Source: Kiritimatiellia bacterium | Lineage (GTDB): Bacteria; Verrucomicrobiota; Kiritimatiellia; RFP12; UBA1067 | Assembly (NCBI GenBank): GCA_017514235.1 | Contig: JAFWKK010000048.1 | Span: 29,729-93,728, forward strand | Length of the DNA stretch: 64,000 nt | Reading direction: 5' to 3' | Shown: positions 15,965 to 34,663 of the stretch, piece by piece | Position numbering within the stretch: position 1 is the stretch's first letter | How the letters are laid out: each line of letters begins with the position of its first letter | The notes under the pieces: model-generated | Seen by the model: only the letters and a program-made list of their open reading frames with translations | Database searches by the model: none | Told to the model about the DNA's origin: nothing | Translations under genes and position numbers: made by a program

Positions 15965-18892
15965 ATGTTAACGGCTATGCTGCTGGCGGCGATGATGACG
16001 CCGTTTGGAGAGAAGGTGACGGCGGACAATGCATGGCGCGAATATCCGCGTCCGCAGATGGTGCGCGATAACTGGCAGTGCCTGAACGGCGCTTGGAACT
16101 GGCAGGTGACCAAGGTCGCTGATGCGGCGGCCATGCCGGAGAAGTGGCAGGAGAAGAAGATGCTCGTTCCGTTCGCCATCGAATCGCCGCTTTCCGGAAT
16201 CGGGCGGCTGATGGAGGACGACGAGTACCTGTGGTACCGCAGGACCTTCACGGCGGCGAAGCGCTCCGGAGAGCGCGTGTTGCTTCACCTGGACGCTGTC
16301 GACTTCCGTGCGCAGGTGTTTGTGGGGCATCATGAGGTCGATGTGCCGCACGAAAGTGCCAACGTGCCGATCACGGCCGACATAACCGACTTGGTGAAAG
16401 ACGGCGAGAACGAGCTGACCGTTTGCGTGTGGGATCCTACGGAGTTCGGCGCGTACGGATCGACGGGCAAGCAGATTCACAAGCCGCAGAGCTGCTTCTA
16501 CACGCGCTCTTCCGGCATCGTCGGCTCGGTCTGGACTGAGAATGTGCCCGAGACGTACATCCGCTCCTACAAGGTGATGCCGGACATCGACGCCGGCACT
16601 GTTCGGTTCGAATTCGACATCGCGGGCTCGCGTGCGGAAGAGGTCGAGGTCGCCGTGGAAGGCTGCGAGCCGTCGAAAGGCATGGACGCGATTACCGTGA
16701 AGATGCCGGCAGGTTTCCGCTTGTGGAGCCCTGAAACGCCGAATCTATACAACTTCACCGTCAAGTGCGGCAAGGATTCGGTAAAAGGCTACTTCGGAAT
16801 GCGGAAGTTCGAGAAGCGCAAGGACGCGAAGGGCGTGCTGCGGTTCTTCCTCAACAACAAGCCGTACTACATCCTCGGAACGCTCGATCAGGGCTGGTGG
16901 CCGGACGGGCTTCTCACTCCGCCGTCCGAAGAGGCGATGGAGTTCGACATAAGAACGCTGAAGGAGTATGGGTTCAACTCGATGCGCAAGCACATCAAGG
17001 TGGAACCGCTGCGCTACTACTACCTTTGCGACAAGATAGGCCTGCTGCTTCTGCAGGACATGCCGTGCGACTTCCCCGAGTGCCGTCACGACATGCCCGG
17101 CGGGAAGGGCACCGACACCGTTCGCTACGGCTTCTACCGTCGCGACTGGAAGCGCGTGATGGATCATCTCATGAATGTCGTCTCAATCGGCGTGTGGATC
17201 CCCTACAACGAGGCGTGGGGGCAGCCGCGCGAGTTCCTGACCCACTCAACGCTCGACTGGACGAAGCGTTACGATCCGACGAGGCTCGTGAACGGGCCTT
17301 CTGGGTGGAACGACTACGAGGGCGGCAACTATGTCTACGAGGCGAGCATCGGGCATTGGCGCGGCAAGAAGAAGCCGTCCGCCCACAAGCCGGTCGGAGA
17401 GTGCGAGGCGGCGGACTTCGTCGACTACCACCACTATCCCGAGCCGGTGATGCCGCCTGTAAACGACCGCCGCATATCGTTCCTCGGCGAGTTCGGCGGA
17501 ATAGCCTTGAAAGTCAAGGGACACATCTGGGACATAAACGACGATAACTATGGCTACGTCGAGGACAGCGACGCGAAGGCGTTGGAGCGCCGCTACCTCG
17601 ACTACATGAGCAAGGTCGAGGAGTTCGCGGCGGCTGGCATGGGAGGCTCGGTCTACACTCAGACGACCGACGTGGAACGCGAAGTCAATGGCCTGATCAC
17701 CTATGACCGTAGGGTGCTAAAGTTCAACAAGGAGGTTCTTAAGGCGGCGCACGGTAAGATTATCGAGGCTGCGGTTGGAGCAAAGCCCGTGGCAGAGGAG
17801 CCTAAGGCTGGCTCACCCGACGATGACGTGAAGGACCTTTCCGAGTTGCTGTCAATTCCAAGCGTGTCTACGGACGTGCGCGAGTGCGACCGTGCCATTG
17901 AGTGGATGAAATCCTATCTCGAATCCAGAGGCGTCTGGTGCAAGACGGTGGTTGCGTCGGATGTCGACGGGCGCAAGGTCCTGTATGCGGCGACGCTTCC
18001 GGAACTGAAGAACCCTGACTTCGCGCTGGTCACCCACCTGGATGTTGTGGCATCGTCGTCGCCTGAGATGTTCAAGCCGAGACTGGAGGGGAACCGGCTT
18101 TATGCCCGTGGCGCCTGCGACACCAAGGCGAACGCGTTCTGCGGCGCCAAGGCGCTTGTCGCGCTGAACGGCAGGGCGTCTGTTGGTTGCATCTTCGCAT
18201 CCAACGAGGAGATAGGCGGCTCGACCACGAAGTCCGTGCTCGACCAGGGCTATGGCTACCCGAAGAGGGCGATCGTCGTACTGGACGCGGGGTCGAAGAA
18301 GGACAATATACAGTATTCCTGCATGGGCTGTTCGTACTACAAGGTCACGGCGTACGGAAAAGCCGGCCATGCATCGCTTCCCGAAAAGTGCGAGAACCCC
18401 ATATACGCCATTGCGGAGGCGGCGATCAAGCTGCGCGACAACTATCCGAAGCGCGAGCCCGGGGAGCGGAAGAACTGCGCGGCGGTCACGATCATCGGCG
18501 GCGGCGAGGCCCAGAACCGCATTCCCGGCGAGGCTTCGATGACCGTAAACGTGCGCTTCACAGAAGATGGCGGACTCGACAAGGAGCGTGCGCTCATCGA
18601 GAAGATCACCGGACTCAAGACGGAGCTCATACGCGGAACGCCTGCGGCGTGCGGCGACCCCGAGTCGCCGGTATTCCTGCGCATCTGCTCGATAGCGAAG
18701 AAATTCTACCCCGACCGCTCGTGTGCGCCGGAAAACGGACGCGGCGCCAACGACATGCGCTGGTTCAGCGGATTCAAGGGAGCGATCGCCAGCCTTGCCA
18801 TGAACCTCGACGGAGGACATTCTGACAACGAGTGGTGCGATGTCTCGGACCTCGGCAATTTCACCGACATGCTCGTGGAGATGTGCAGGTGA
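15965..18892 (+). CDS. Fusion of GH2 glycoside hydrolase and M20 metallohydrolase
   Basis: The 975-residue product has a GH2 enzyme at the front: a jelly-roll sugar-binding domain (WQCLNGAWNWQVTK ... YLWYRRTF), an Ig-like domain, and a TIM barrel with acid/base Glu416 in IPYNEAWGQPREF and nucleophile candidate Glu509 in SFLGEFGGI. From about residue 620 to the end it is an M20 dizinc hydrolase with HLDVV, RGACDTKAN, SNEEIGG, LDAG, GHASLPE and a final LDGGHSDNEWCD. Both active sites look intact. The N-terminus (MLTAMLLAAMMTPFGEKV) could be a short signal peptide. The start is preceded by AAAAAGGAGTAGAAAAC, a strong ribosome-binding site. GH2 activity could be beta-galactosidase, glucuronidase or mannosidase. 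The M20 half may remove an amide- or ester-linked decoration from the same sugar, but that is inference. It is the second M20-CAZyme fusion within 8 kb. Confidence 0.87.
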   Translation: MLTAMLLAAMMTPFGEKVTADNAWREYPRPQMVRDNWQCLNGAWNWQVTKVADAAAMPEKWQEKKMLVPFAIESPLSGIGRLMEDDEYLWYRRTFTAAKRSGERVLLHLDAVDFRAQVFVGHHEVDVPHESANVPITADITDLVKDGENELTVCVWDPTEFGAYGSTGKQIHKPQSCFYTRSSGIVGSVWTENVPETYIRSYKVMPDIDAGTVRFEFDIAGSRAEEVEVAVEGCEPSKGMDAITVKMPAGFRLWSPETPNLYNFTVKCGKDSVKGYFGMRKFEKRKDAKGVLRFFLNNKPYYILGTLDQGWWPDGLLTPPSEEAMEFDIRTLKEYGFNSMRKHIKVEPLRYYYLCDKIGLLLLQDMPCDFPECRHDMPGGKGTDTVRYGFYRRDWKRVMDHLMNVVSIGVWIPYNEAWGQPREFLTHSTLDWTKRYDPTRLVNGPSGWNDYEGGNYVYEASIGHWRGKKKPSAHKPVGECEAADFVDYHHYPEPVMPPVNDRRISFLGEFGGIALKVKGHIWDINDDNYGYVEDSDAKALERRYLDYMSKVEEFAAAGMGGSVYTQTTDVEREVNGLITYDRRVLKFNKEVLKAAHGKIIEAAVGAKPVAEEPKAGSPDDDVKDLSELLSIPSVSTDVRECDRAIEWMKSYLESRGVWCKTVVASDVDGRKVLYAATLPELKNPDFALVTHLDVVASSSPEMFKPRLEGNRLYARGACDTKANAFCGAKALVALNGRASVGCIFASNEEIGGSTTKSVLDQGYGYPKRAIVVLDAGSKKDNIQYSCMGCSYYKVTAYGKAGHASLPEKCENPIYAIAEAAIKLRDNYPKREPGERKNCAAVTIIGGGEAQNRIPGEASMTVNVRFTEDGGLDKERALIEKITGLKTELIRGTPAACGDPESPVFLRICSIAKKFYPDRSCAPENGRGANDMRWFSGFKGAIASLAMNLDGGHSDNEWCDVSDLGNFTDMLVEMCR

Positions 18893-18937
18893 GGGTAAGG
18901 AAATGCACGGAAACAACTGGATTAGGGGTAAAATAAA

Positions 18938-20932
18938 ATGAACATTGCAACGAGTGCGCTTTTCGCTGCGCAGGTGCTTTTCCCGGCGGCGGAGACGAAG
19001 CCAGAGGGCTATGACGGAGCCCAGGTTCGCATCGAAGGCGGCGCGGCGGTGGTGGACGTTGCGCCGCGGCACAGGTTCAGCGGCGTGAATTTCGTGTTTC
19101 CTGAGCCGTTCGCGCTGAACCGCTACGACGTCTGGTGCGCGGAGGTGTCCAACCGCACCGACAGGACGTTGGAATTCATCGCGCATGGCATAGCCAAGGG
19201 CACGCCCAAGCGGTTTGCGAACATGCGGTTCAGCCTCGGGCCGGGCGAAGGCAAGGTCGTCAAGGCGCACTGCAACCGTAAGTGCTATACGGTGACGCCT
19301 GGAAGCAAGGGTCTTCCAGGCATGATGGGTTATGACCTTGAATTCCGTCCCGACCACCTTGACAAAACCGGCAGCATCAGTTCCGTCATCGTCTTCAGCA
19401 TGCCCCAGGAGTCGCCTGCGCAGTTCGACGTCAAGCGGGTATGGGTGGAAGGCGAACAGCCGGACATGACGATTAAAATCGACGACGACTTCTTCCCGTT
19501 CGTGGATGCGTTCGGTCAGTTCGCTCACGCAGAATGGCCGGGGAAGGTGCATTCGGTCAAGGAGCTGAGAGCCGCTGCGGCAGCAGAGGATGCGGAGCTT
19601 GCCGCCCATCCCGAGTCGCCGATTCCTGGCGCGGACCGTTTCGGCGGCTGGGGCGCGGGCCCGCAGCTGAAGGCGACGGGTATGTTCCGCACCGAGAAAT
19701 GGAACGGGCGCTGGTGGCTCGTCGATCCCGACGGACACATCTTCTTTTCGCTTGGCTGCTGCTACGTGCGCCTTCAGGGCAAGACGGCCGTGACGGACCG
19801 TGAGAAGTTCTTCTCTTGGCTGCCGGTGAAGAATGATTCGTTTTTCGGTGACTGCTGGTACAAGGGCAAACACCAGTGGCTGAACAAGTGCTTCTATCGG
19901 GGCAAGGGCGTGGTGTCGCTGTTCGACTTCGCGCAAGCGAACCAGAAACGCATCTATGGCGAGGACTGGAAGTCGATCTTCAACGAACGCCAGCACCGCC
20001 GCATGCGTTCCTGGGGATTCACGTCCATGGGCAACTGGTCCGATCCGGAGGTCATGTCGTTGAGCCGCACGCCGTACGTTGACAACTTCAACCTCGACTG
20101 CGTGCGCAAGATTGCGGGCGACAAGAAGGGCGTCTGGCGCAAGTTCCCGGACGTCTACGCACCCGATTTTGCGGAGAACGTTCTCAAGAGCGCCTACAAG
20201 ACGCGCATCGAGAAGTCCCGTACCGATCCCTGGTGCATCGGCTGGTTCGTTGAGAACGAACTGCATTGGGGCGCCGGCTGGAACGGCAACGGCGAGGACT
20301 TGGCCAGTGCGGCGGTCGATTCCCCGGAAGACCAACCTGCGAGGATGGAATACCTCCGCCGCATCCGAGCAGCGCACGGGCCTGATGCCACGTTCAAGGA
20401 TGCGACGCATGAAGACGTCAAGGCTTTCGCTGCCGATATCGCCGAACGGTATTTCAGCACCGTCAAGAAGGCCGTCGAAACCGTCGCGCCCGGACGCCTG
20501 TATTTGGGTTGCCGTTTCTGCAAGGGGTATCCTGACGCCGTGCGTGCCGCGACCCGCCATTGCGACGTGGTGAGCTACAACAGCTATAGCGAACTCCCTT
20601 ACACGCCGAGGCCGGATGACGGTGTAATTGACAAGCCGACGATCATCGGTGAGTTTCACTTCGGTTCGCTCGACCGCGGCACCATGAATGCGGGGCTCGT
20701 GCCCTGTCGGGATATGAAGGAGCGCGTCGAGAAGTACAAGGCGTACGTGCGCTATGCCATAAAGGACGAGCATCTCGTCGGCGTGCACTGGTTCTTCTGG
20801 CATGACATGCCGCTTACCGGCTGGATGGACGGCGAGGACTTCGGCAACGGCGTGATGGACGTCACCGACAATCCGCATCCCGAGATGGTCGAGGCCACGC
20901 GAGAGCTGGCATGTGAGCTGTACAGGCAGTGA
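18938..20932 (+). CDS. GH50/agarase-like glycoside hydrolase, clan GH-A
   Basis: The 664-residue product resembles the beta-agarase (GH50-type) group: FFPFVDAFGQFAHAEWPGKVHS, then DRFGGWGAGPQLKATGMFRTEK and GRWWLVDPDGHIFFSLGC. The barrel shows the acid/base candidate in WFVENELHWG and the nucleophile candidate in IIGEFHFGS. A beta-sandwich CBM-like domain occupies residues about 20-180. The N-terminus (MNIATSALFAAQVLF) may be a signal peptide. It lies 45 bases after the GH2-M20 gene and ends 22 bases before the transporter gene, so it is in the same operon. Related gut proteins are often annotated only as agarase-like or beta-galactosidase-like, so the substrate is open. Confidence 0.75.
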   Translation: MNIATSALFAAQVLFPAAETKPEGYDGAQVRIEGGAAVVDVAPRHRFSGVNFVFPEPFALNRYDVWCAEVSNRTDRTLEFIAHGIAKGTPKRFANMRFSLGPGEGKVVKAHCNRKCYTVTPGSKGLPGMMGYDLEFRPDHLDKTGSISSVIVFSMPQESPAQFDVKRVWVEGEQPDMTIKIDDDFFPFVDAFGQFAHAEWPGKVHSVKELRAAAAAEDAELAAHPESPIPGADRFGGWGAGPQLKATGMFRTEKWNGRWWLVDPDGHIFFSLGCCYVRLQGKTAVTDREKFFSWLPVKNDSFFGDCWYKGKHQWLNKCFYRGKGVVSLFDFAQANQKRIYGEDWKSIFNERQHRRMRSWGFTSMGNWSDPEVMSLSRTPYVDNFNLDCVRKIAGDKKGVWRKFPDVYAPDFAENVLKSAYKTRIEKSRTDPWCIGWFVENELHWGAGWNGNGEDLASAAVDSPEDQPARMEYLRRIRAAHGPDATFKDATHEDVKAFAADIAERYFSTVKKAVETVAPGRLYLGCRFCKGYPDAVRAATRHCDVVSYNSYSELPYTPRPDDGVIDKPTIIGEFHFGSLDRGTMNAGLVPCRDMKERVEKYKAYVRYAIKDEHLVGVHWFFWHDMPLTGWMDGEDFGNGVMDVTDNPHPEMVEATRELACELYRQ

Positions 20933-20954
20933 AGCGGCTGACGGGGGAAACGCC

Positions 20955-22169
20955 ATGAAGCTTGCCGTAGCCACGATGCTCATGCTGTTCACGATGATTC
21001 AGTTCATCGTGAACTTTGCGGGCTCCATGGGGGTGGTCGTAAAGAACCAGTTCGGCGCTTCCGTGACCGCCTCTCAGTTCGGCGCGGCGGCGATGTTCCT
21101 GGGGTTCCTGTTCTTCGGCATTCCCGGGGGGCTGATCTTGAAGCGGCGTGGCTACAGGTTCACCGCGCTTTTCGCCACCGGGGTGGCGTTCGCTGGCATG
21201 GGCGTGCAGCTTGTGTCTGGGATGGTTGCTTCGTTTCCCGTATATGTCTTCGGGGCGTTCGTGTCGGGGGTCTCCGCGTGTCTCCTCAATCTGGTCGTGA
21301 ACCCTATGCTGAACGTGTTGGGCGGCGGCGGCAAGAAGGGGAACCAGCTGATCCTCATCGGCTGCACGCTGAACATCATCGGCGGAATGCTGGCACCGCT
21401 CCTTACGGGACTCCTTGTCGGTGGTGACATCGAGACGGCCAAGGTCATGGACGTTGCACCGATGCTGGTGACGGCCATGGTCATATACCTTACGGCCTTC
21501 GCAGTCGTCTGGTTTGTAAAGATTCCAGAGCCGGGGCTGGAAGCTGCGGGTGCGTCGACCGAAAGCGTGTTCGCGGCGGTGAAGGACGCGATGCGGTACC
21601 GCAACCTGGCGTTCGGAGTGCTGGCGATCTTCCTTTATGAGGTCATAGAGTCCGGAATCCCCAACATGGCGAACCTGTACATGAGCCCGATAAGGGAGGT
21701 CGGTCCTGCGGTAGCGGGGACTGTTGTTTCGGGCTACTGGCTGGCGATGGCGATCGGGTGCGGGATTGGAGGGGTCTTTGGCACGAAGGTCCCTGCCCGG
21801 ACGATGATGATCTGCTGCTCGTTGCTCGGGGTAACGTTGCTGGCGCTGGCGATAAACGTTCCTTATGAGCTTGTAAAAGTGTTCTCGATGACCGTTCCGA
21901 AGTCGATGATCTTCGCGGCGCTTTGCGGATTTGCGACTTCGATCATGTGGTCTAGCATCTTCAACCTAGCGGTCGAGGGGCTCGGCAGCAGGGTTGAGAT
22001 CGCTTCCGGCATATTCATGACGATGGTCTGCGGAGGCATGCTTCTGCCGTTGCAGGGCCTTTTGGCAGACAAGGTCGGCATCCTCAACAGCTATTATCTC
22101 ACCATCGCGCTCTTCCTGTACCTCTTCCTTTATGCGACGGTGCTTTCGCGTCCACGTCGCGTCGGCTGA
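20955..22169 (+). CDS. MFS transporter, FHS (sugar:H+ symporter)-like
   Basis: The 404-residue protein has about 12 hydrophobic segments and matches the fucose/glucose-galactose (FHS) type of major facilitator. The N-terminal helix contains FTMIQFIVNFAGSMGVVVKNQFGAS, followed by GIPGGLILKRRGYRFTALFATG, and later helices include LNIIGGMLAPLLTGLLVGG. I use the ATG at 20955 rather than the longer frame from 20913, because the hydrophobic helix starts there and GGGGGAAACGCC precedes it. It probably takes up sugars released by the hydrolases encoded just upstream. No terminator follows within view. Confidence 0.83.
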   Translation: MKLAVATMLMLFTMIQFIVNFAGSMGVVVKNQFGASVTASQFGAAAMFLGFLFFGIPGGLILKRRGYRFTALFATGVAFAGMGVQLVSGMVASFPVYVFGAFVSGVSACLLNLVVNPMLNVLGGGGKKGNQLILIGCTLNIIGGMLAPLLTGLLVGGDIETAKVMDVAPMLVTAMVIYLTAFAVVWFVKIPEPGLEAAGASTESVFAAVKDAMRYRNLAFGVLAIFLYEVIESGIPNMANLYMSPIREVGPAVAGTVVSGYWLAMAIGCGIGGVFGTKVPARTMMICCSLLGVTLLALAINVPYELVKVFSMTVPKSMIFAALCGFATSIMWSSIFNLAVEGLGSRVEIASGIFMTMVCGGMLLPLQGLLADKVGILNSYYLTIALFLYLFLYATVLSRPRRVG

Positions 22170-23067: not shown

Positions 23068-23128
23068 GCAAATCCAATTCCCCATCCAATTCCCCATCCG
23101 ACTCCCCATTTTGGGGAATTGGATTTGC
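23068..23128. repeat. 17-bp perfect inverted repeat with internal direct repeats
   Basis: GCAAATCCAATTCCCCA (23068-23084) pairs with its exact complement at 23112-23128. The 27-base loop repeats TCCAATTCCCCA and a variant TCCGACTCCCCA. The arms could form a hairpin in RNA or DNA. No T-run follows, so it is not a simple terminator. Confidence 0.65.
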
Positions 23129-23161
23129 CGCAGCTGGCTTGAGAGTCGTCGCATACCCCTC

Positions 23162-23353
23162 GGTCTAAGGGCGTTGTACCCCCCAGTCTAAGAGTCCCGT
23201 ACCCGTAGGACTAAGAGCCTCGTACCCGTAGGTCTGACAAGCCCTTATCCCCCGGGGCAAGGGCGTTGCATACCCCGGGGTTTGAGTTCTCCTGTGCGGA
23301 GGTCAGACCCCGGTGGCTTCTACGTCAGACCCCGGCGGCTTCTACGTCGGACC
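23162..23353. repeat. Imperfect tandem repeats, two unit types
   Basis: The first part repeats a degenerate unit of about 23 bases around 'TCTAAGAG..CGTACCCGTA' four or five times. The second part has two 22-base units (23302-23323 and 23324-23345, starting GTCAGACCCCGG) that differ at one base, plus a partial third (23346-23353). Spacers of a CRISPR type are absent. Confidence 0.6.
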
Positions 23354-23523: not shown

Positions 23524-23553
23524 TTGAACCTTTTCACGTCAATTCGTTATTAT
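23524..23553 (+). promoter_or_regulatory. Putative promoter of the sigma-LamG gene
   Basis: TTGAAC (23524-23529), an 18-base spacer, and TATTAT (23548-23553) lie just upstream of the sigma-factor gene. The predicted start of transcription is near 23560. Confidence 0.45.
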
Positions 23554-23570
23554 CTCATGGAGACACCTCT

Positions 23571-23585
23571 GTGAATGACCGATGA
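23571..23585 (+). other. Possible 4-codon leader frame coupled to the sigma-factor start
   Basis: GTG-AAT-GAC-CGA-TGA has GGAGA at 23559-23563 at ideal spacing. Its TGA overlaps the ATG of the sigma gene (ATGA at 23582-23585). The sigma ATG has no Shine-Dalgarno sequence of its own at the usual distance and an in-frame stop sits 6 bases before it. Confidence 0.3.
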
Positions 23586-26500
23586 CGGTTGTAGACGAAA
23601 TCAGGAAAGATCGCGAAAGCGGGGCGAAAAGGCTTGAAAGCGAGTACAAAGCGGGGCTTATGGCCTTCGCTCGGCGTTTCTGTGCAAATGATTTAGATGC
23701 CGAGGCGCTCGTATACCGCACGTTTTCCGAAGTAATCGAAAGGATAGACGGCTATACCGAGCAGTCGGCCTTCTTCGGTTGGATGTGCAAGATTCTCGTC
23801 AACTGTCATGCCAACGACATCCGTCGCCGGTCGAACCAGACAGTCGTGAACATGGGGACGCTTCCCGAAGTCGAGGATGACGGGGCGACTCGCGTTGTCG
23901 AGGCGATTGACGCGAAACTGCTGCGCGAAGCGGTCGAGAATCTGCCGCCGGAGATGAAGGAGGCTGTGCTTCTTCGCTATTTCATGGATCTGCCGCTCAG
24001 GAAGATTTCGCAGATTCTCGCCCAGCCTATTGGCACTGTGAAATCGCGGCTCTACTATGCTCGCGTCATGCTTGCGCAGCGCCTTGGCGCGAACCTGAAG
24101 AAGCCGGCGGTGGCGCTGATAGCCGGGGCGCTGCTTCTGCTTGGCGTGACAGCGGCGGTCGTGGGCGCGGTGGTGGCAACGAACCGAGATGCTACGGCGA
24201 TTGAAGGGGCAAAGACGGCAGACGGGGCGCAGGAGACTGAAACGACGGGTGAAGAACGGCTTGTCGATGGCGCGTATATCCCGTCCGTCCCATACGTCGC
24301 TTCCGATCCTTCTATTTCTTCAAATAACAAACAGGGAACACAAAACATGAACATCAAGACAACTGCCGCCGCGCTCATGACGGCGGCTACAGCCCTTGGC
24401 GCGGCACCTGTGGATGCTGAACCGATAGGAAGCGGTCTTGCCGCATATCTTACGTTCGATGATGCGGTGCTGTCGAATCGCGTCCCGAACGCCACGATCA
24501 CCGGCGTGACGCTCAGCGACAGCGGCATCGCGTCCGGCGTGAAGAGCGGCGAGTTCGGGCATTCCGGATTCGGCGGCTATCTCGACATCGACCAAGGCTG
24601 GGCGCGACTCGATGGTTCGCAGAACCTGACGTTCGAGAACGGCAACGACTTCACGATCATGGTCTGGATGCGGGCGGAAGCCAATCAGGTGAGCGATCCG
24701 CTCATCTTCGGCAACGGAAACTGGAATACGACATCGGCTCCCGGCGTTCTGCTATCGATGTCCACCATTGTCCGCTTCAACTATTCCATAAACGGCACGA
24801 CCCGTCAATCGGGGAGCGTTTCCCCTGAACTTGGCAAGTGGGTGTTCTATGCGATATCGCACACGTCGGACGGCAAGTTCCGGTACTACTACAGCAGCCC
24901 GTCCGGAGTGCTGACGGTGGCCAATGAACTTGATGCGCCCAATCTAAAGTTGATATACGATGCAATTGCCGACAGAAAGCCGTTCTATCTCGGACAGGAT
25001 GGAACTGGCGCATACTCGAAGAAGTTCGTTGGCAAGCTCGACGAGTTCGCGCTCTGGACGCGCGGTCTTCAGCAGTCGGACATCGAGTCGATCTACAGGA
25101 ACGGGCGCAAGGGTCGGCTGCTTGACGAACTTCTGAAGCCTGCGATTGCGATGGTGGATGCGGGTTCGGGAAACATCGACATTTCCTTCGCCGGTGCGCG
25201 GAGCGGATCGTATGAGCTTTATGTAGCGTCCGGTGCCGTTGACGGTGGCGTTGACCGCTTTGCGTGGGATCACTTCGATCATGTGGCAACCATCGCGCCG
25301 ACAGATTCAAGCTATACGTTTGCCCTGTCCAACGATATCAAGAACGAGGGGCGCTACTACCGCTTCTTCCTGACCAAGGACGCAAACTACCAGGAAGTTG
25401 CTTTTACGGAGAACACCAGTACGGCATTAGGCACGTCTCCATGCATTGATACGGGCTTCAAGCCAACATCCGCTACATCGGTTTCGGCGGAGATCGAGTT
25501 CAATTCCATTGAGGGATGGGAGTACATCTTCGGCAGTGAATTCACAGATGGCGGGGTTAAGTACTACTACTATCTCGGCGCAAATGCCTCCGGCGCTTAC
25601 GATTGGAACACGGAGAGCAAGGGCAGTTCCACTGTGCAGTTCGGTTCGGTCTCGACGGGCGTAAGGTATGGCTTTGACTTCTGCGTGACCAACGTCTCTT
25701 GGTGGACCGTTTCGGGCGCGGAGGAGTCCGCACGGCAGAACTACAAGATAAGAAACAGTCTTGAGGAATTCCCGGACAGCTCCGTTACAATGTACGTATT
25801 CAGGGGCAATCCGCAGACGAGTTATCGTCCGCTCATAGGTAAGATGTATTCGTTTGCCGTGCGGGAGAATGGTGAGACGGTGCGCGACTATGTGCCGGCT
25901 GTGGACTCTTCAGGTGTGGCGGGGCTTTACGAAGTCCTGTCCAAGACCTTCCATCCCAGCGAGACGGCTTATCCCTTCACGGCGGGTTCTGTGGTTTCAG
26001 GCCGTCTTACCGTCCAGTCCGAGACTGCTAAGGCGATGACGGCGAGCGATCCCATAACCGCCTACTGGGTTGGCGGAGCGAGTGGGGACGTTGACGAACC
26101 CTCGAATTGGCATTGCGTGAACAGCTACGGTACAGTCATCGAGGCAGTTCCGCAGACGATTACAGACATTAACATCGCGAATGCATCTCAGATGTTCAGC
26201 GCTCCGGCCAATTCAGTGTTCGCCTGCAAGAGCATCACGGTTGGTGCGTCGGTAGCGCTGGCGAGCGACTTTGACTGGCGCGGCGTGGACATGACAAAGG
26301 TTTCCGGGACGCTTGACCTTGCCGGGCACAAGCTTTATCTGGCGGCTGCCGACAACATAGGAAACGCCGTAACCTTCACCGACCTGACAGGCGGCGGCGA
26401 ACTTCATGTTGAGGTCGCTTCCGGAAAGACGGTCGTAAACACGGCAATGGCTCTCGCCGGTGCCGTCACGCTGGTCAAGGACGGCGCGGGTACGTTTATC

Positions 26501-27442
26501 GCCAATCGCCAGAGCCAGACCAACTCCGGCGGCGTCAGGGTAGACGGTGGCATATTGGCGACGACGGCATACATCAATACGCGAGTTCTCGGCGCAAGCG
26601 GATCGAAGGTTGTGGTTGCCTGCGGAACGCTGCGCATCGAGAATGGATATACCGGATTGGACGCCCATGACCTTGAACTTGCGGGCGGGACGCTCCACAT
26701 GTACAATAGCGAAATGATCGCCGGACGTTCCGTGATCGGCAGCCTGACCCAGACGGAAGATTCGGTCTTGCGGCTTGAATCCACGCAGTCGGACGACGGC
26801 AAGTGCGACACGGAATTCGGCAACGCCGCCGTCTGGGACTTGGGAGGAAAGACGCTCACCATCCAGTTCGTTACAGCCAGCACAGACCTCATGCTGGGCA
26901 GGGACAGACAGGTAAAGCCGATCTTCAGAAATGGCACCGTTGATGCGCACAACCAGCTCGGGCATTGGCTTGACTACGGTGTTGACGCCACCAACAACGT
27001 CTGCCTTAAGTTCGGCATGAAGAGTGTGCGGCAATACGGCGATTCAAAGGTGCAGGATTACGTCAACGACATCCCGTCTGGACTTGCTGTTGGCGGTAGC
27101 TACACGATGTCTATTTATGGAACCTACACTCCGAATTCCGACATAGGCTACAATTTGCGGCTTATGAATGGCGCGACAGTCGATCTTGGCGCAAGAAACG
27201 ATGCTTGGCCGATCAGTCTCGGAAATGACAGGATTATGGTGTTCGAGCCTGGCGCAACCATAAACATCGAATTGGGCGACAGGCAGCTGACGCAAGGCGA
27301 TAAGATCGTCTCTTGGAGCGCGATTCCTGCTGGCGTAACGTTCGTCAATTCCTCCGTGTCGAGGAGGCTGCGCTCATGGTCTCTCGTTGCGACAAATGAT
27401 GGAATCTATGTGCAAAAAGGAATGGCGATAATCATCAGGTAA
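23582..27442 (+). CDS. ECF sigma factor fused through a TM helix to a LamG/beta-repeat exported part
   Basis: One uninterrupted frame of 1286 codons. Residues about 1-170 are an ECF sigma factor: region 2 (LMAFARRFCANDLDAEALVYRTF ... FFGWMCKILVNCHANDIRRR) and region 4 (LREAVENLPPEMKEAVLLRYFMDLPLRKISQILAQPIGTVKSRLYYAR). Residues about 174-198 form a transmembrane helix (AVALIAGALLLLGVTAAVVG). A 55-residue linker follows. At residue 256 a second signal-peptide-like segment begins (MNIKTTAAALMTAATALGAAPVDA), then a LamG/concanavalin domain (about 270-500), another beta-domain, and beta-strand repeats of autotransporter type (LVKDGAGTFIANRQ). The protein ends GMAIIIR. The internal ATG at 24347 could start a separate exported protein; the sequence just before it is AT-rich like a leader, and a shifted frame would stop there. 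So this is either a true membrane-tethered sigma sensor or two genes joined by loss of a stop. Confidence 0.75.
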   Translation: MTVVDEIRKDRESGAKRLESEYKAGLMAFARRFCANDLDAEALVYRTFSEVIERIDGYTEQSAFFGWMCKILVNCHANDIRRRSNQTVVNMGTLPEVEDDGATRVVEAIDAKLLREAVENLPPEMKEAVLLRYFMDLPLRKISQILAQPIGTVKSRLYYARVMLAQRLGANLKKPAVALIAGALLLLGVTAAVVGAVVATNRDATAIEGAKTADGAQETETTGEERLVDGAYIPSVPYVASDPSISSNNKQGTQNMNIKTTAAALMTAATALGAAPVDAEPIGSGLAAYLTFDDAVLSNRVPNATITGVTLSDSGIASGVKSGEFGHSGFGGYLDIDQGWARLDGSQNLTFENGNDFTIMVWMRAEANQVSDPLIFGNGNWNTTSAPGVLLSMSTIVRFNYSINGTTRQSGSVSPELGKWVFYAISHTSDGKFRYYYSSPSGVLTVANELDAPNLKLIYDAIADRKPFYLGQDGTGAYSKKFVGKLDEFALWTRGLQQSDIESIYRNGRKGRLLDELLKPAIAMVDAGSGNIDISFAGARSGSYELYVASGAVDGGVDRFAWDHFDHVATIAPTDSSYTFALSNDIKNEGRYYRFFLTKDANYQEVAFTENTSTALGTSPCIDTGFKPTSATSVSAEIEFNSIEGWEYIFGSEFTDGGVKYYYYLGANASGAYDWNTESKGSSTVQFGSVSTGVRYGFDFCVTNVSWWTVSGAEESARQNYKIRNSLEEFPDSSVTMYVFRGNPQTSYRPLIGKMYSFAVRENGETVRDYVPAVDSSGVAGLYEVLSKTFHPSETAYPFTAGSVVSGRLTVQSETAKAMTASDPITAYWVGGASGDVDEPSNWHCVNSYGTVIEAVPQTITDINIANASQMFSAPANSVFACKSITVGASVALASDFDWRGVDMTKVSGTLDLAGHKLYLAAADNIGNAVTFTDLTGGGELHVEVASGKTVVNTAMALAGAVTLVKDGAGTFIANRQSQTNSGGVRVDGGILATTAYINTRVLGASGSKVVVACGTLRIENGYTGLDAHDLELAGGTLHMYNSEMIAGRSVIGSLTQTEDSVLRLESTQSDDGKCDTEFGNAAVWDLGGKTLTIQFVTASTDLMLGRDRQVKPIFRNGTVDAHNQLGHWLDYGVDATNNVCLKFGMKSVRQYGDSKVQDYVNDIPSGLAVGGSYTMSIYGTYTPNSDIGYNLRLMNGATVDLGARNDAWPISLGNDRIMVFEPGATINIELGDRQLTQGDKIVSWSAIPAGVTFVNSSVSRRLRSWSLVATNDGIYVQKGMAIIIR

Positions 27443-27450
27443 GGCAAGAG

Positions 27451-29559
27451 ATGAGACGAAGGGAGTTTTTGAAGTCGTCCGCCGCCGTCGCGGTTTGCGG
27501 CGGGCTGACGGCGATTCGCGCCGCCGGTTCCGGGGGTGGTGCTATTCACGGGCGCGTGACGGCTGACGGAAAGGGACTCGCCGGCGTCGTCGTTTCTGAC
27601 GGATTGCAATGCGTTCGCACGGACGTGAACGGCGCGTTCGCATTGCCGCGCCGCGAGGGTGCGCGGTTCGTCGCGTTGTCTGCGCCGTGCGGCTACCAGA
27701 TGAAGAACTGGTATCGGCGAATAGAGACTGGCGCGACTTATGACTTTGCGCTTGAACGGGCGGCGATTGGGAGCGCGAAATGTGGATGCCGGTTCGTGCA
27801 TGTGGCCGATTCGGAAATCGGCGGGGACAATGCGGAGAACAGGCGGTGGATCGCCGAAACGCGCCAGATCGCCCATGCCGAGCGGTGCGCGTTCATCGTC
27901 CATACCGGCGACATCTGCTATCTGAAGGGCATGCAGGCGCACGCGCAGCTGATGAACACGGAGAATATGGGCTTGCCGGTTCTATACTGCCTCGGCAACC
28001 ACGATTGCGTCGCGGGCGACTATGGCGAACAGGCGTTTGAGGAGCTTTTCGGGCCTTGTCGATATTCCTTCAACGCGGGTGGCATCCATTTCCTCGTCGT
28101 GCCGATGACGGAAGGATGGGACGTAAGGCCGAGCTACACCGAGGACGAGCTTGCGGATTGGCTTCGCGCCGACCTTGCGCTGATCGACAGGCGTCGGCCT
28201 GTCATGGTGTTCAGCCATATGATCTTCCATGCGAAGAACGAGAGCGAGGCGGGGATTGTAATCGGCAAGGAACGTCCGCTCGACCTGCGCAGCGCCTGCA
28301 ACTTCAAGGGCTTCGTGTACGGACACGTCCACAACACCTACACGAGCGGCAACGGCGGTGTTACGTTCATGGCGTCGTCCAACGCCAACTTCGGAGGCAT
28401 CGACCATTCGCCGGAGGTCCTGCGGGTGTTCGACGTAAAGCCGGACGGGTCTTTCGTTGCGGAGAACCACTACGGCCGCAATCCGTCGCGGACATGGCAG
28501 ACTTCTCGCGCTGGCGCGGTGTGGGAGCGGAAGCTGCCCGCGCCAGTCCTCTTCTGCACGCCGGTCGTTTCCGGCGGAAGGGTGTTCGTCGGCACGACGG
28601 ACGACGAGAACCGCAGCACGGGAATGGTGGTGGCGTTCGACGCGAAAAGCGGGGCGATTGTCTGGAAGCGCAAAGTCGCCAACTCTATCAAGAACAGGAT
28701 GGTCGTTGCGGGCGGCAACGTCATCGTGCAGGACGCGGGCGGCAGCGTCTATGCGTTTGCCGCGAACAGCGGAAGGAGCGCCTGGAAGATGCAGCTGCCG
28801 TACCATTTCCAGGTGCTGGCGTCGGCGGTGACGGCATCGGAAGACGGCCGCGCGGCGTATGTCGGTTACGGCAAGCGGCTGACGGCGGTCGATGCCGCGA
28901 CGGGTGCGGTGAAGTGGCGCAATTCAGCGTGGGAGAGCGAGCCGATTGCAGGTGCGCCGGGAATTGGCGAGGGAAAGATAGTGTGGTCGTCGAACTGGGA
29001 CGGGCTTGAATGCCACGACCTGACGACAGGCGCGCGGCTTTGGCGGCTCGACGGCAAGCCTTGGCGTTTCCCGGGTGCCGATCCGCTGATTACCGGCGGC
29101 AATGCGGTCGTCGCCTGCTACTGGCATATCGGCGAGGTCGATCTTGCGACCGGGCAGGCGTTGCGCGTAAAGGAGCTCAAGGAGGTGACGGCGTTGCCTT
29201 CCGGGCCGATTCTTTCCGTCGGCGGCAAGTATCTCGTAGGCACGCTTGACGGCGGGCTCCTCGCCATCGACAGCGCGACGCTTGAGATCGTCTGGCACGG
29301 CGCGGCGGACATGTCGCTTCTGGCCGTCGGCGCGTATAGACGGAAGGGGCGGATGGTGAACACGTCGCCCGTCATGGTTGGCGCTTCGACCGTGTGCGCG
29401 GCGTGTGCAGACGGCATAATCCATTTCTGGGATCTGGCGACGGGCGCGGAAACGCGCCGCATCGTCACCGGCGCACCTTATCTTGCCGGCGCGGCGGTTT
29501 CGGAAGGGCGCATATTCGCGGCGGACATGGCGGGCGTGATGAGGATGTTCAGGATATGA
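27451..29559 (+). CDS. Exported metallophosphoesterase with PQQ-type beta-propeller
   Basis: The 702-residue product starts with a Tat-type signal (MRRREFLKSSAAVAVCGG). Residues about 30-100 are a carboxypeptidase-regulatory/SdrD-like beta-domain (IHGRVTADGKGLAGVVVSDG). Residues about 105-340 are a calcineurin-like phosphoesterase with FVHVADSEIGGDNAENRRW, FIVHTGDICYLKG, YCLGNHDCVAGD, VMVFSHMIFHAK and VYGHVHNTYTSG, which give the dimetal ligands; the first motif reads VAD-x-E in place of the usual D-x-H. Residues about 350-700 form PQQ-like propeller blades (VVAFDAKSGAIVWKRKV, LTAVDAATGAVKWRNSA). It starts 8 bases after the sigma-LamG stop and overlaps the next gene by ATGA, so the three are probably one operon. 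Confidence 0.85.
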   Translation: MRRREFLKSSAAVAVCGGLTAIRAAGSGGGAIHGRVTADGKGLAGVVVSDGLQCVRTDVNGAFALPRREGARFVALSAPCGYQMKNWYRRIETGATYDFALERAAIGSAKCGCRFVHVADSEIGGDNAENRRWIAETRQIAHAERCAFIVHTGDICYLKGMQAHAQLMNTENMGLPVLYCLGNHDCVAGDYGEQAFEELFGPCRYSFNAGGIHFLVVPMTEGWDVRPSYTEDELADWLRADLALIDRRRPVMVFSHMIFHAKNESEAGIVIGKERPLDLRSACNFKGFVYGHVHNTYTSGNGGVTFMASSNANFGGIDHSPEVLRVFDVKPDGSFVAENHYGRNPSRTWQTSRAGAVWERKLPAPVLFCTPVVSGGRVFVGTTDDENRSTGMVVAFDAKSGAIVWKRKVANSIKNRMVVAGGNVIVQDAGGSVYAFAANSGRSAWKMQLPYHFQVLASAVTASEDGRAAYVGYGKRLTAVDAATGAVKWRNSAWESEPIAGAPGIGEGKIVWSSNWDGLECHDLTTGARLWRLDGKPWRFPGADPLITGGNAVVACYWHIGEVDLATGQALRVKELKEVTALPSGPILSVGGKYLVGTLDGGLLAIDSATLEIVWHGAADMSLLAVGAYRRKGRMVNTSPVMVGASTVCAACADGIIHFWDLATGAETRRIVTGAPYLAGAAVSEGRIFAADMAGVMRMFRI

Positions 29560-30530
29560 AAGACTTGATGTGGGCGACGCTATTCCACCTCGGGCGCAAT
29601 TTCTGCGGCGACAGCGTGGCGTTCAAGAAGGGGGACAATCTCGCCGCATGCTTCGGCTTCAAGCAGATGGACTTCGACGAGGCCATCTGGCGCGAAGCTA
29701 CGGAACGCATGGCGAAGGGCGGCGTGAACACGGTGATCCTCGACCTCTGCGAAGGCGTTGTGTATCCGTCGCACCCGGAGCTCGCGGTGAAGGGGAGCTG
29801 GCCGCCCGAGAAGTTGAAGGGCGAGGTGTCGCGTCTCGCTCGGATGGGCATCGAGGCTATTCCAAAGCTGAACTTCTCTACGTGCCACGACGACTGGCTC
29901 GGCGAGTATTCGCGCATGGTATCGACGCAGACGTACTACAGGGTGTGTCGCGAGATCATATCGGACGTGTTCGAAATCTTCGGCAGGCCGAGGTTCTTCC
30001 ACATCGGCTATGACGAGGAGACGGCGGCGAACCAGAAGAGCTATTTCCTCGTTTGCATGCGCCAGGGCGAGATGTGGTGGCACGATTTCCTTTTCTTCGT
30101 GAAGGAGATCGAAAAGCGCGGTTCGCGGGCATGGATGTGGAGCGACTACATGTGGGACCACGAGGAGGAGTTCCTGAAGCGCATGCCGCGCTCCGTTCTG
30201 CAGTCAAACTGGTACTATGGGCGGCGTTGGGAAGGGGAGCCGCCAGAGCGTCCTTACGAGGCGAAGCGCCTTGCCGCCTTCGAGAAGCTCGACAAGGCGG
30301 GCTTCGACCAGGTGCCGACGGGCACGAACTGGGTGCCGCCGTATTTCAAGAAGGGCGAGAACAACGACGCGAACTTCGCGGGACTTGTGAAGCACTGCCG
30401 CAAGCACGTCGATCCGAAGCGGCTGAAGGGATTTGTCAACGCCTCGTGGTCGTCGGTGCTGAACGAGAGCCGACGCAGGCGCGTGTTCGACGCCATCGAT
30501 CAGGTTGCGGCCGAGGCCAAGGTCTGGTAA
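29556..30530 (+). CDS. GH20-like putative hexosaminidase-fold protein
   Basis: I start at the ATG at 29556, which overlaps the previous stop (ATGA); the open frame extends further upstream only as a shadow. The 324-residue product has a TIM-barrel pattern. GGVNTVILDLCEGV and GIEAIPKLNFSTCHDDW correspond to early strands, and FHIGYDEETAANQKSY matches the Asp-Glu pair of GH20 beta-hexosaminidases. SRAWMWSDYMWDHEEEFLKRMP and LQSNWYYG follow. No signal peptide is visible, unlike its neighbours. The family assignment rests on the H-x-G-x-D-E motif and fold pattern, so it should be read as GH20-like or related. Translational coupling suggests a shared role with the phosphoesterase. Confidence 0.65.
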   Translation: MKDLMWATLFHLGRNFCGDSVAFKKGDNLAACFGFKQMDFDEAIWREATERMAKGGVNTVILDLCEGVVYPSHPELAVKGSWPPEKLKGEVSRLARMGIEAIPKLNFSTCHDDWLGEYSRMVSTQTYYRVCREIISDVFEIFGRPRFFHIGYDEETAANQKSYFLVCMRQGEMWWHDFLFFVKEIEKRGSRAWMWSDYMWDHEEEFLKRMPRSVLQSNWYYGRRWEGEPPERPYEAKRLAAFEKLDKAGFDQVPTGTNWVPPYFKKGENNDANFAGLVKHCRKHVDPKRLKGFVNASWSSVLNESRRRRVFDAIDQVAAEAKVW

Positions 30531-30715: not shown

Positions 30716-34633
<3,918 letters not shown>

Positions 34634-34663
34634 TACGGGGAACATTCAAGGAGAACCACGGAC

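Follow-up and report, generated by a model that had tools for sequence, protein, structure and literature searches.

A reading frame joining an ECF sigma factor, a transmembrane helix and a LamG domain, with a candidate nested start for a secreted sensor, in a Kiritimatiellia bacterium

Proteins that unite a sigma factor, a transmembrane (TM) helix and a carbohydrate-binding domain are already known in Actinobacteria. The accessible parts of two sources report the extracytoplasmic function (ECF) family ECF52 (SCO4117 of Streptomyces coelicolor) from Actinobacteria only, and propose that the sigma factor is released by proteolysis (PMC5826349, PMC8999054); ECF48 and ECF53 are comparable families. 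The gene considered here lies at 23582-27442 (+) of a 64,000-nucleotide stretch of DNA (the window) from a Kiritimatiellia bacterium (assembly GCA_017514235.1, contig JAFWKK010000048.1; the genome is called G000 below) and joins an ECF sigma factor, a TM helix and a LamG domain in a single open reading frame (ORF). A preliminary description of this DNA had claimed as much, and the open frame, Pfam, TIGR02937 and AlphaFold2 all confirm it. The reading that we favour, and consider reasonably probable, is that the one frame yields two proteins: a sigma-sensor tethered to the membrane and, separately, the sensor in secreted form. Among the matches listed by a literature search, with most subscription papers outside its scope, there was no report of such fusions in Verrucomicrobia-type bacteria and none of a secreted sensor nested within a sigma gene. 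The parts of the gene are as follows.

23582..24091 (+): ECF sigma factor domains, residues 1-170 (Pfam, TIGR02937, profile match, AlphaFold2)
24104..24184 (+): transmembrane helix, residues 175-201 (hydrophobicity of homologues, AlphaFold2 helix)
24185..24346 (+): low-complexity linker, residues 202-255 (no in-frame stop in any of the 37 homologues measured; AlphaFold2)
24333..24349 (+): candidate internal translation start, a weak Shine-Dalgarno sequence (AGGGA) and the ATG at 24347
24347..24418 (+): signal-peptide-like segment, residues 256-279, site between VDA and E chosen by eye
24629..25084 (+): LamG domain (Laminin_G_3), residues 350-501 (Pfam)
25085..27418 (+): putative beta-rich exported region, residues 502-1279 (low-confidence AlphaFold2)
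27419..27439 (+): C-terminal tail GMAIIIR, residues 1280-1286

The frame extends over 1286 codons without a stop, and the whole fusion would therefore be made by ribosomes from 23582 whenever the sigma factor is made. This start is sound, because a stop codon closes the block of codons preceding the first start of the ORF and the N-termini of homologues carry the same MxIVEELRxDRE sequence. In a Pfam scan of the 1286-residue protein, Sigma70_r4_2 (residues 113-163) and Sigma70_r4 (119-161) both scored above cut-off, and Sigma70_r2 (21-84) scored below its own (21.5 versus 24 bits). The NCBIfam model TIGR02937 for sigma70-ECF proteins gave 66 bits against a cut-off of 42.9, and a profile built from 37 homologues matched solved ECF sigma factors over residues 4-169, with E-values down to 2e-19. 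The protein has sigma2 and sigma4 domains without sigma3 and thus belongs to the ECF sigma factors (group 4).

An AlphaFold2 model from a 37-row alignment (mean predicted local distance difference test score, pLDDT, of 72) shows the sigma domains as helical and a further helix at 175-201; its confidence is low from residue 202 onward. The sigma helix ends at residue 169 and the TM helix begins at 175; the Pfam scan found no zinc-finger anti-sigma family in residues 165-255. The Laminin_G_3 match at residues 350-501 (E 3e-12) hints at glycan binding, and the chain thereby combines, as ECF52-type proteins do, a TM helix (175-201) with an exported domain of predicted carbohydrate-binding type. 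The label "beta-repeat" given earlier to the exported part holds only in part: AlphaFold2 assigned mainly strand to residues 277-1286, yet that model, from four alignment rows, is poor (mean pLDDT 44), and the Pfam scan of the 1286-residue protein matched no repeat family.

The arrangement is not peculiar to the window. A whole-protein search of 59 relatives matched 48 of them, a match to any part of the query being counted. Forty regions were fetched, 39 of them picked from sigma hits with higher scores and one for its match to the LamG part, and 14 named loci (labelled Verrucomicrobia or uncultured bacterium) were added together with the paralogues in G000. After removal of 8 duplicates, 8 incomplete frames and 9 separate sigma factors of G000, 41 complete fused ORFs remained, the window's own included, of 290-1558 residues and all from the same taxonomic order; this sample is biased toward proteins resembling the window's. 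Eleven come from genome G049, six from G051, four from G040, three from G000 and four from named loci; nine further genomes account for the remaining 13. The preliminary description had held that consistently split genes in relatives would speak against a fusion. Some split forms do exist, such as that in G014 (L056), where a short gene for sigma factor, TM helix and tail precedes a second gene that has a signal peptide of its own, but the one-frame layout of sigma factor, TM helix and exported sensor beside enzyme genes recurs in many relatives. The 1286-codon frame is genuine and not the product of a lost stop codon.

Among the matches listed, many weaker sigma hits are unfused frames of about 175-245 residues. 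The sigma-TM part was found at E<=1e-30 in two of 107 sampled genomes of the class, namely G000 itself and G038 of the same order, and a plasmid protein search gave partial matches only, none covering 80% of the query, the five matches listed being to the sigma part. When ten fused proteins were scanned, exported domains exceeded their cut-offs in two (LamG in L063; a phosphodiesterase and LamG in L085), and a PATR match in L064 remained below its cut-off. A sigma fusion of another type occurs at L040:509-2290, a 593-residue protein with sigma factor, TM helix and exported part, no internal signal peptide and no tail; we take its exported part to resemble a repeat of prenyltransferase/terpene-cyclase type. 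Sigma hits in frames of 588-604 residues occur, among the matches listed, in six genomes of that genus.

The linkers between the TM helix and the internal start are of low complexity and highly variable, ranging from 12 to 92 codons. Across 37 of them (2408 codons) there is not one in-frame stop, compared with 28 and 47 in the other two frames and 69.5 expected from shuffled bases. The ratio of nonsynonymous to synonymous change was sought in six pairs, of which two were effectively unalignable, two had at most one change and two gave 0.25 and 0.79.

In the window, the linker is followed by Met256, the ATG at 24347, and by MNIKTTAAALMTAATALGAAPVDA, with cleavage placed by eye before the next residue, E. 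The preliminary description had pointed to this second signal peptide, behind an AT-rich leader, as a possible mark of error. Both are present as described, and the leader is real, because the ATG at 24347 is extreme for the ORF: the surrounding 40 nucleotides have a minimum free energy (MFE) of folding of -0.2 kcal/mol, matched by 0.7% of the tested codon positions of the ORF, and a GC content of 0.40, matched by 3.4%. The suspicion of error fails, for 36 of the 41 fusions have an in-frame start and a signal-peptide-like segment behind the linker (34 ATG, one TTG, one GTG), resembling a working internal start. The hydrophobic segment is alanine-rich in most of the 34 ATG cases, and AAGGAG lies eight bases ahead of both the TTG and the GTG.

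Shine-Dalgarno matches of at least four nucleotides accompany 30 of 38 automatically picked internal ATGs, the corresponding counts being 68 of 506 for the other ATGs in frame and 280 of 2029 for positions in the linkers. Two of the 38 lie in incomplete ORFs or were wrongly picked; in L065 the automatic pick fell on a wrong Met, in the TM segment, and scored zero, and a later ATG (codon 341) has AGGAG. Around the internal start (n=37), GC content falls from 0.65 to 0.42-0.43 and the 40-nucleotide folding energy goes from about -10 to -1.9 kcal/mol, the values for 411 control ATGs being 0.58 and -9.1. The conserved internal site thus looks like a functional translation start, and since the second signal peptide is both conserved and start-like, two products are to be expected. 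In the five fusions that have no internal segment (L015, L056, L057, L063 and L080) the TM helix leads directly into the exported part; the tethered form can therefore stand alone, with the nested start as a conserved addition to it.

The fusions also share a C-terminus. The commonest letters of the last seven residues are [AGP]-[FT]-V-I-V-I-[RK] (consensus AFVIVIR), and the tail is present in 34 of 41 complete fusions under a loose rule and 29 under a strict one; of the seven misses, five are near (for example GMTIILY and PPATTFICK). Among non-sigma ORFs the strict tail ends 4 of 254 in G000, 4 of 141 in G049 and 7 of 88 in G051/G047, compared with 0.1% of internal 6-mers, the stretches counted not being random: one from G000 contained a known hit and several others adjoin fusion loci. 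Most of these tail-bearing proteins have N-termini that look secreted by eye, with at least one exception (L140:8754-10199). The tail may be a sorting or protease-recognition signal. A type IX C-terminal domain was considered; SprA (PF14349) was unmatched in G000 and equally in all 14 control genomes. Short sensors at L021:6189-7001 (-), L059, L071, L075, L097 and L107 have a motif like DEYQFIVSGYPAA...EARxRx..IALNTT ahead of the tail, and the genes that follow them often begin alike, with SNVxMxQxxxxRxVTITY.

Comparison of related loci suggests that sigma-TM and sensor modules have been exchanged. L073 and L092 are 97% identical over 1239 nucleotides of upstream DNA, sigma and TM sequence, and no similarity is detectable from codon 207; L074 and L105 are 86% identical up to codon 197 and then break in the same way. 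Similarity often ends in this manner just past the TM helix, which suggests sensor swapping, and the border between TM helix and linker appears to be where the modules are exchanged. The likeness of L073 and L092 may reflect transfer or misbinning of a contig, because their genomes belong to different families. Other pairs differ in pattern: L090 and L091 are alike on either side of the linker and unlike within it, the sensors of L061 and L102 agree better (85%) than their sigma parts do (70%), L077 and L087 have one change in 65 linker codons between diverged flanks, and L065/L072, L075/L107 and L076/L078 are similar over their full length. The nearest sigma factor to the window's is that of L097 (69%), which carries a short, different extension, and an incomplete relative of the LamG part, 78% identical, occurs in G031.

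Six separate ECF sigma factors of G000 (L017-L022) are each followed by a gene with TM helix, linker and sensor, the partners ending in GFIMSIR, GMIISIR, GMTLVIQ, GMLLQIR, TMIVIK and GLAIIIR; the partner of a seventh, L016, is short and lacks the tail. The partners in L018, L020 and L021 begin with an anti-sigma-like HxxxCxxC domain in the same frame, the motif being recognized by eye, and in L019 a stop separates that domain from the TM part. In a tree of 57 sigma domains, the seven nearer two-gene sigma factors of G000 form one clade within the fused ones. No evolutionary direction is claimed, because the tree is rooted on a distant outgroup and fused forms were sampled preferentially.

Together, these observations point to a mechanism for the two products. 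The TM helix would anchor the ECF sigma factor to the inner membrane, the LamG/beta-rich sensor being exported to the other side; translation from the nested ATG at 24347, which supplies a signal peptide of its own, would add a copy of that sensor that is secreted free of the membrane. If the sensor binds a surface or dietary glycan, or if handling of the C-terminal tail changes, the exported part may become exposed to a periplasmic protease, after which an RseP-like protease would cleave the TM helix and free the sigma domain; release by two such cuts is inferred by analogy with IutY, ECF52 and RsgI. Proteases of the M50 and S41 families are encoded in G000, as in most control genomes. The freed sigma factor would activate its own promoter, and hence the adjacent phosphoesterase operon, and the secreted copy might act as a lectin at the cell surface or compete for the same ligand. 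A wider proposal, which we hold only tentatively, is combinatorial surface sensing: tethered sigma-sensor and nested secreted copy, both tailed like ordinary secreted proteins, would let the sigma factor read the ligand, or the state of the tail machinery, against the free copy, with new pairs arising by recombination at the hypervariable linker and each gene having its own variant of the promoter.

Several points weigh against the two-product reading. The window's internal Shine-Dalgarno match is weak (AGG, 11 nucleotides), two of the 41 fusions (L060 and L080) end without any tail-like sequence, and the internal hydrophobic segment might be a second TM helix, which would place the sensor on the wrong side. 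Among relatives of the whole LamG part, the closest found lies in G004 (59% identical) and is a stand-alone secreted protein without a sigma factor; its gene ends in the tail GTTLIVR and adjoins a similar phosphoesterase gene. The homologue counts are, moreover, not independent, given shared ancestry and the selection of homologues for similarity to the window's protein.

Of the alternatives, the one that survives best, although we consider it unlikely, is the one-protein sensor-regulator of the preliminary description: the full-length sigma-TM-LamG protein alone would matter, and an ancestral secreted gene would have left the internal start and signal peptide behind as relics. The lack of the internal signal peptide in five of 41 complete fusions and the weak Shine-Dalgarno sequence in the window agree with this, as does the description of ECF52 proteins, in the accessible text, as acting in single chains (PMC5826349, PMC8999054). 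However, a relic would hardly explain why the start codon is retained in 36 of 41 fusions, including GTG and TTG replacements preceded by AAGGAG, nor the enrichment of Shine-Dalgarno sequences and the dip in GC content and structure at the internal start.

Distinctly less plausible is a polyprotein, exported from the first TM helix onward and cut by signal peptidase at the internal AxA-type site into a sigma-TM-linker stub and a released sensor. In-frame signal-peptide-like segments behind the linker, with small residues at the expected site, would suit it, but the Shine-Dalgarno sequence, start codon and unstructured leader are left unexplained, and a segment translocated after the first TM helix is wrongly oriented for ordinary signal peptidase action. 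We think it just as improbable that two independent genes were joined in frame by chance, with a functional secreted LamG protein and a sigma link without a role. The stand-alone orthologue in G004 and the two adjacent genes of L056 could be cited in favour, against which stand the complete absence of stops from the linkers, the direct fusions without a signal peptide and the same TM-linker-sensor layout on anti-sigma-type genes of G000. An assembly or sequencing error that deleted a stop near 24347 is scarcely credible, for although the genome is in 82 contigs, the junction is also open in the 40 other complete fusions (12 other genomes and four named loci).

The favoured reading of a tethered sigma-sensor with a secreted copy can be extended to the surroundings of the gene, where three further features lie.

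23524..23553 (+): promoter-like motif TTGAACC-N13-TCGTTATTAT, 28 nucleotides upstream of the sigma start
27451..29559 (+): gene for a metallophosphoesterase with a pyrroloquinoline quinone (PQQ)-type propeller and a twin-arginine translocation (TAT)-like start, 8 nucleotides downstream of the fusion
29556..30530 (+): third gene, overlapping the second by ATGA; L055, L018 and L019 have similar proteins downstream

An unbiased two-block search, in which real and control sets were given equal restarts, found the motif TTGAACC-N12-13-CGGTATTAT common to the upstream regions of 42 non-redundant fused genes, some of them incomplete. Its score was 637, compared with 404-416 for six shuffled sets and 436-486 for six further sets, each made up of 42 other upstream regions of these loci. 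Variants of the -35 block include TCCAACGA and TTCAAGCA, and the fit is poor in about 8 of the 42. The strict pattern matches the 3.96-Mb G000 once, at 23525-23553, and a relaxed pattern twice; the simplest regulon would therefore be the gene's own operon. A promoter of the form GAAC-N14-17-CGT was rejected for want of enrichment (3 of 58, against a shuffled rate of 6.7%). Farther upstream, the intergenic stretch 23072-23353 holds three short tandem repeats, with units of 12, 23 and 22 nucleotides.

The metallophosphoesterase-propeller gene likely shares an operon with the fusion; the third gene matched no Pfam family above cut-off. From the 40 next genes listed for all sigma factors, 20 that follow fusions were scanned: six matched glycosidases or esterases (GH5 twice, GH28, GH39, alpha-amylase and GDSL), and the other 14 matched nothing at E<=1e-5. 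Elsewhere in the window, 15965-18892 (+) encodes an unusual 975-residue fusion of glycoside hydrolase family 2 (43-443) with an M20 peptidase (620-973), and antisense frames of 1046 and 1104 residues at 17852-20992 and 31331-34645 (-), the second opposite rpoB, are probably shadow frames.

If the two-product reading is correct, families of one-gene sensor-regulators, with at least 11 complete members in a single genome (G049), take the place in an uncultivated gut lineage of the sigma and anti-sigma gene pairs of other bacteria, and one frame would encode each sensor in both tethered and free form. Such an arrangement would give a simple way of coupling a large number of exported domains, lectins or enzymes, to the hydrolase genes beside them. 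It would also provide a naturally occurring design for fitting sigma factors with different sensors, and a possible sorting signal at the C-terminus.

Among systems already described, as far as the accessible parts of the sources go, three come closest. In the two-gene SigI/RsgI systems by which Clostridium thermocellum senses polysaccharides, parallel sigma factors likewise stand under exported sensors and TM-helix proteolysis, but the sensor sits on a separate anti-sigma protein (PMC12203970), a layout comparable to that of L017-L022 in G000. IutY (ECF243) of Pseudomonas putida is, like the window's protein, a sigma factor fused to a membrane-bound regulator, and is freed by Prc and RseP (PMC8999054); it differs in serving iron cell-surface signalling through a fused anti-sigma factor, no such partner having been identified for the window fusion. 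The nearest likeness is to ECF52, in which a single chain also comprises an ECF sigma factor, a TM helix, a low-complexity periplasmic stretch and a carbohydrate-binding domain (PMC5826349, PMC8999054). However, ECF52 has a zinc-finger anti-sigma domain between sigma factor and TM helix, whereas the window's sigma factor joins its TM helix directly, and the internal start, the signal peptide and the C-terminal tail are features of the window fusion.

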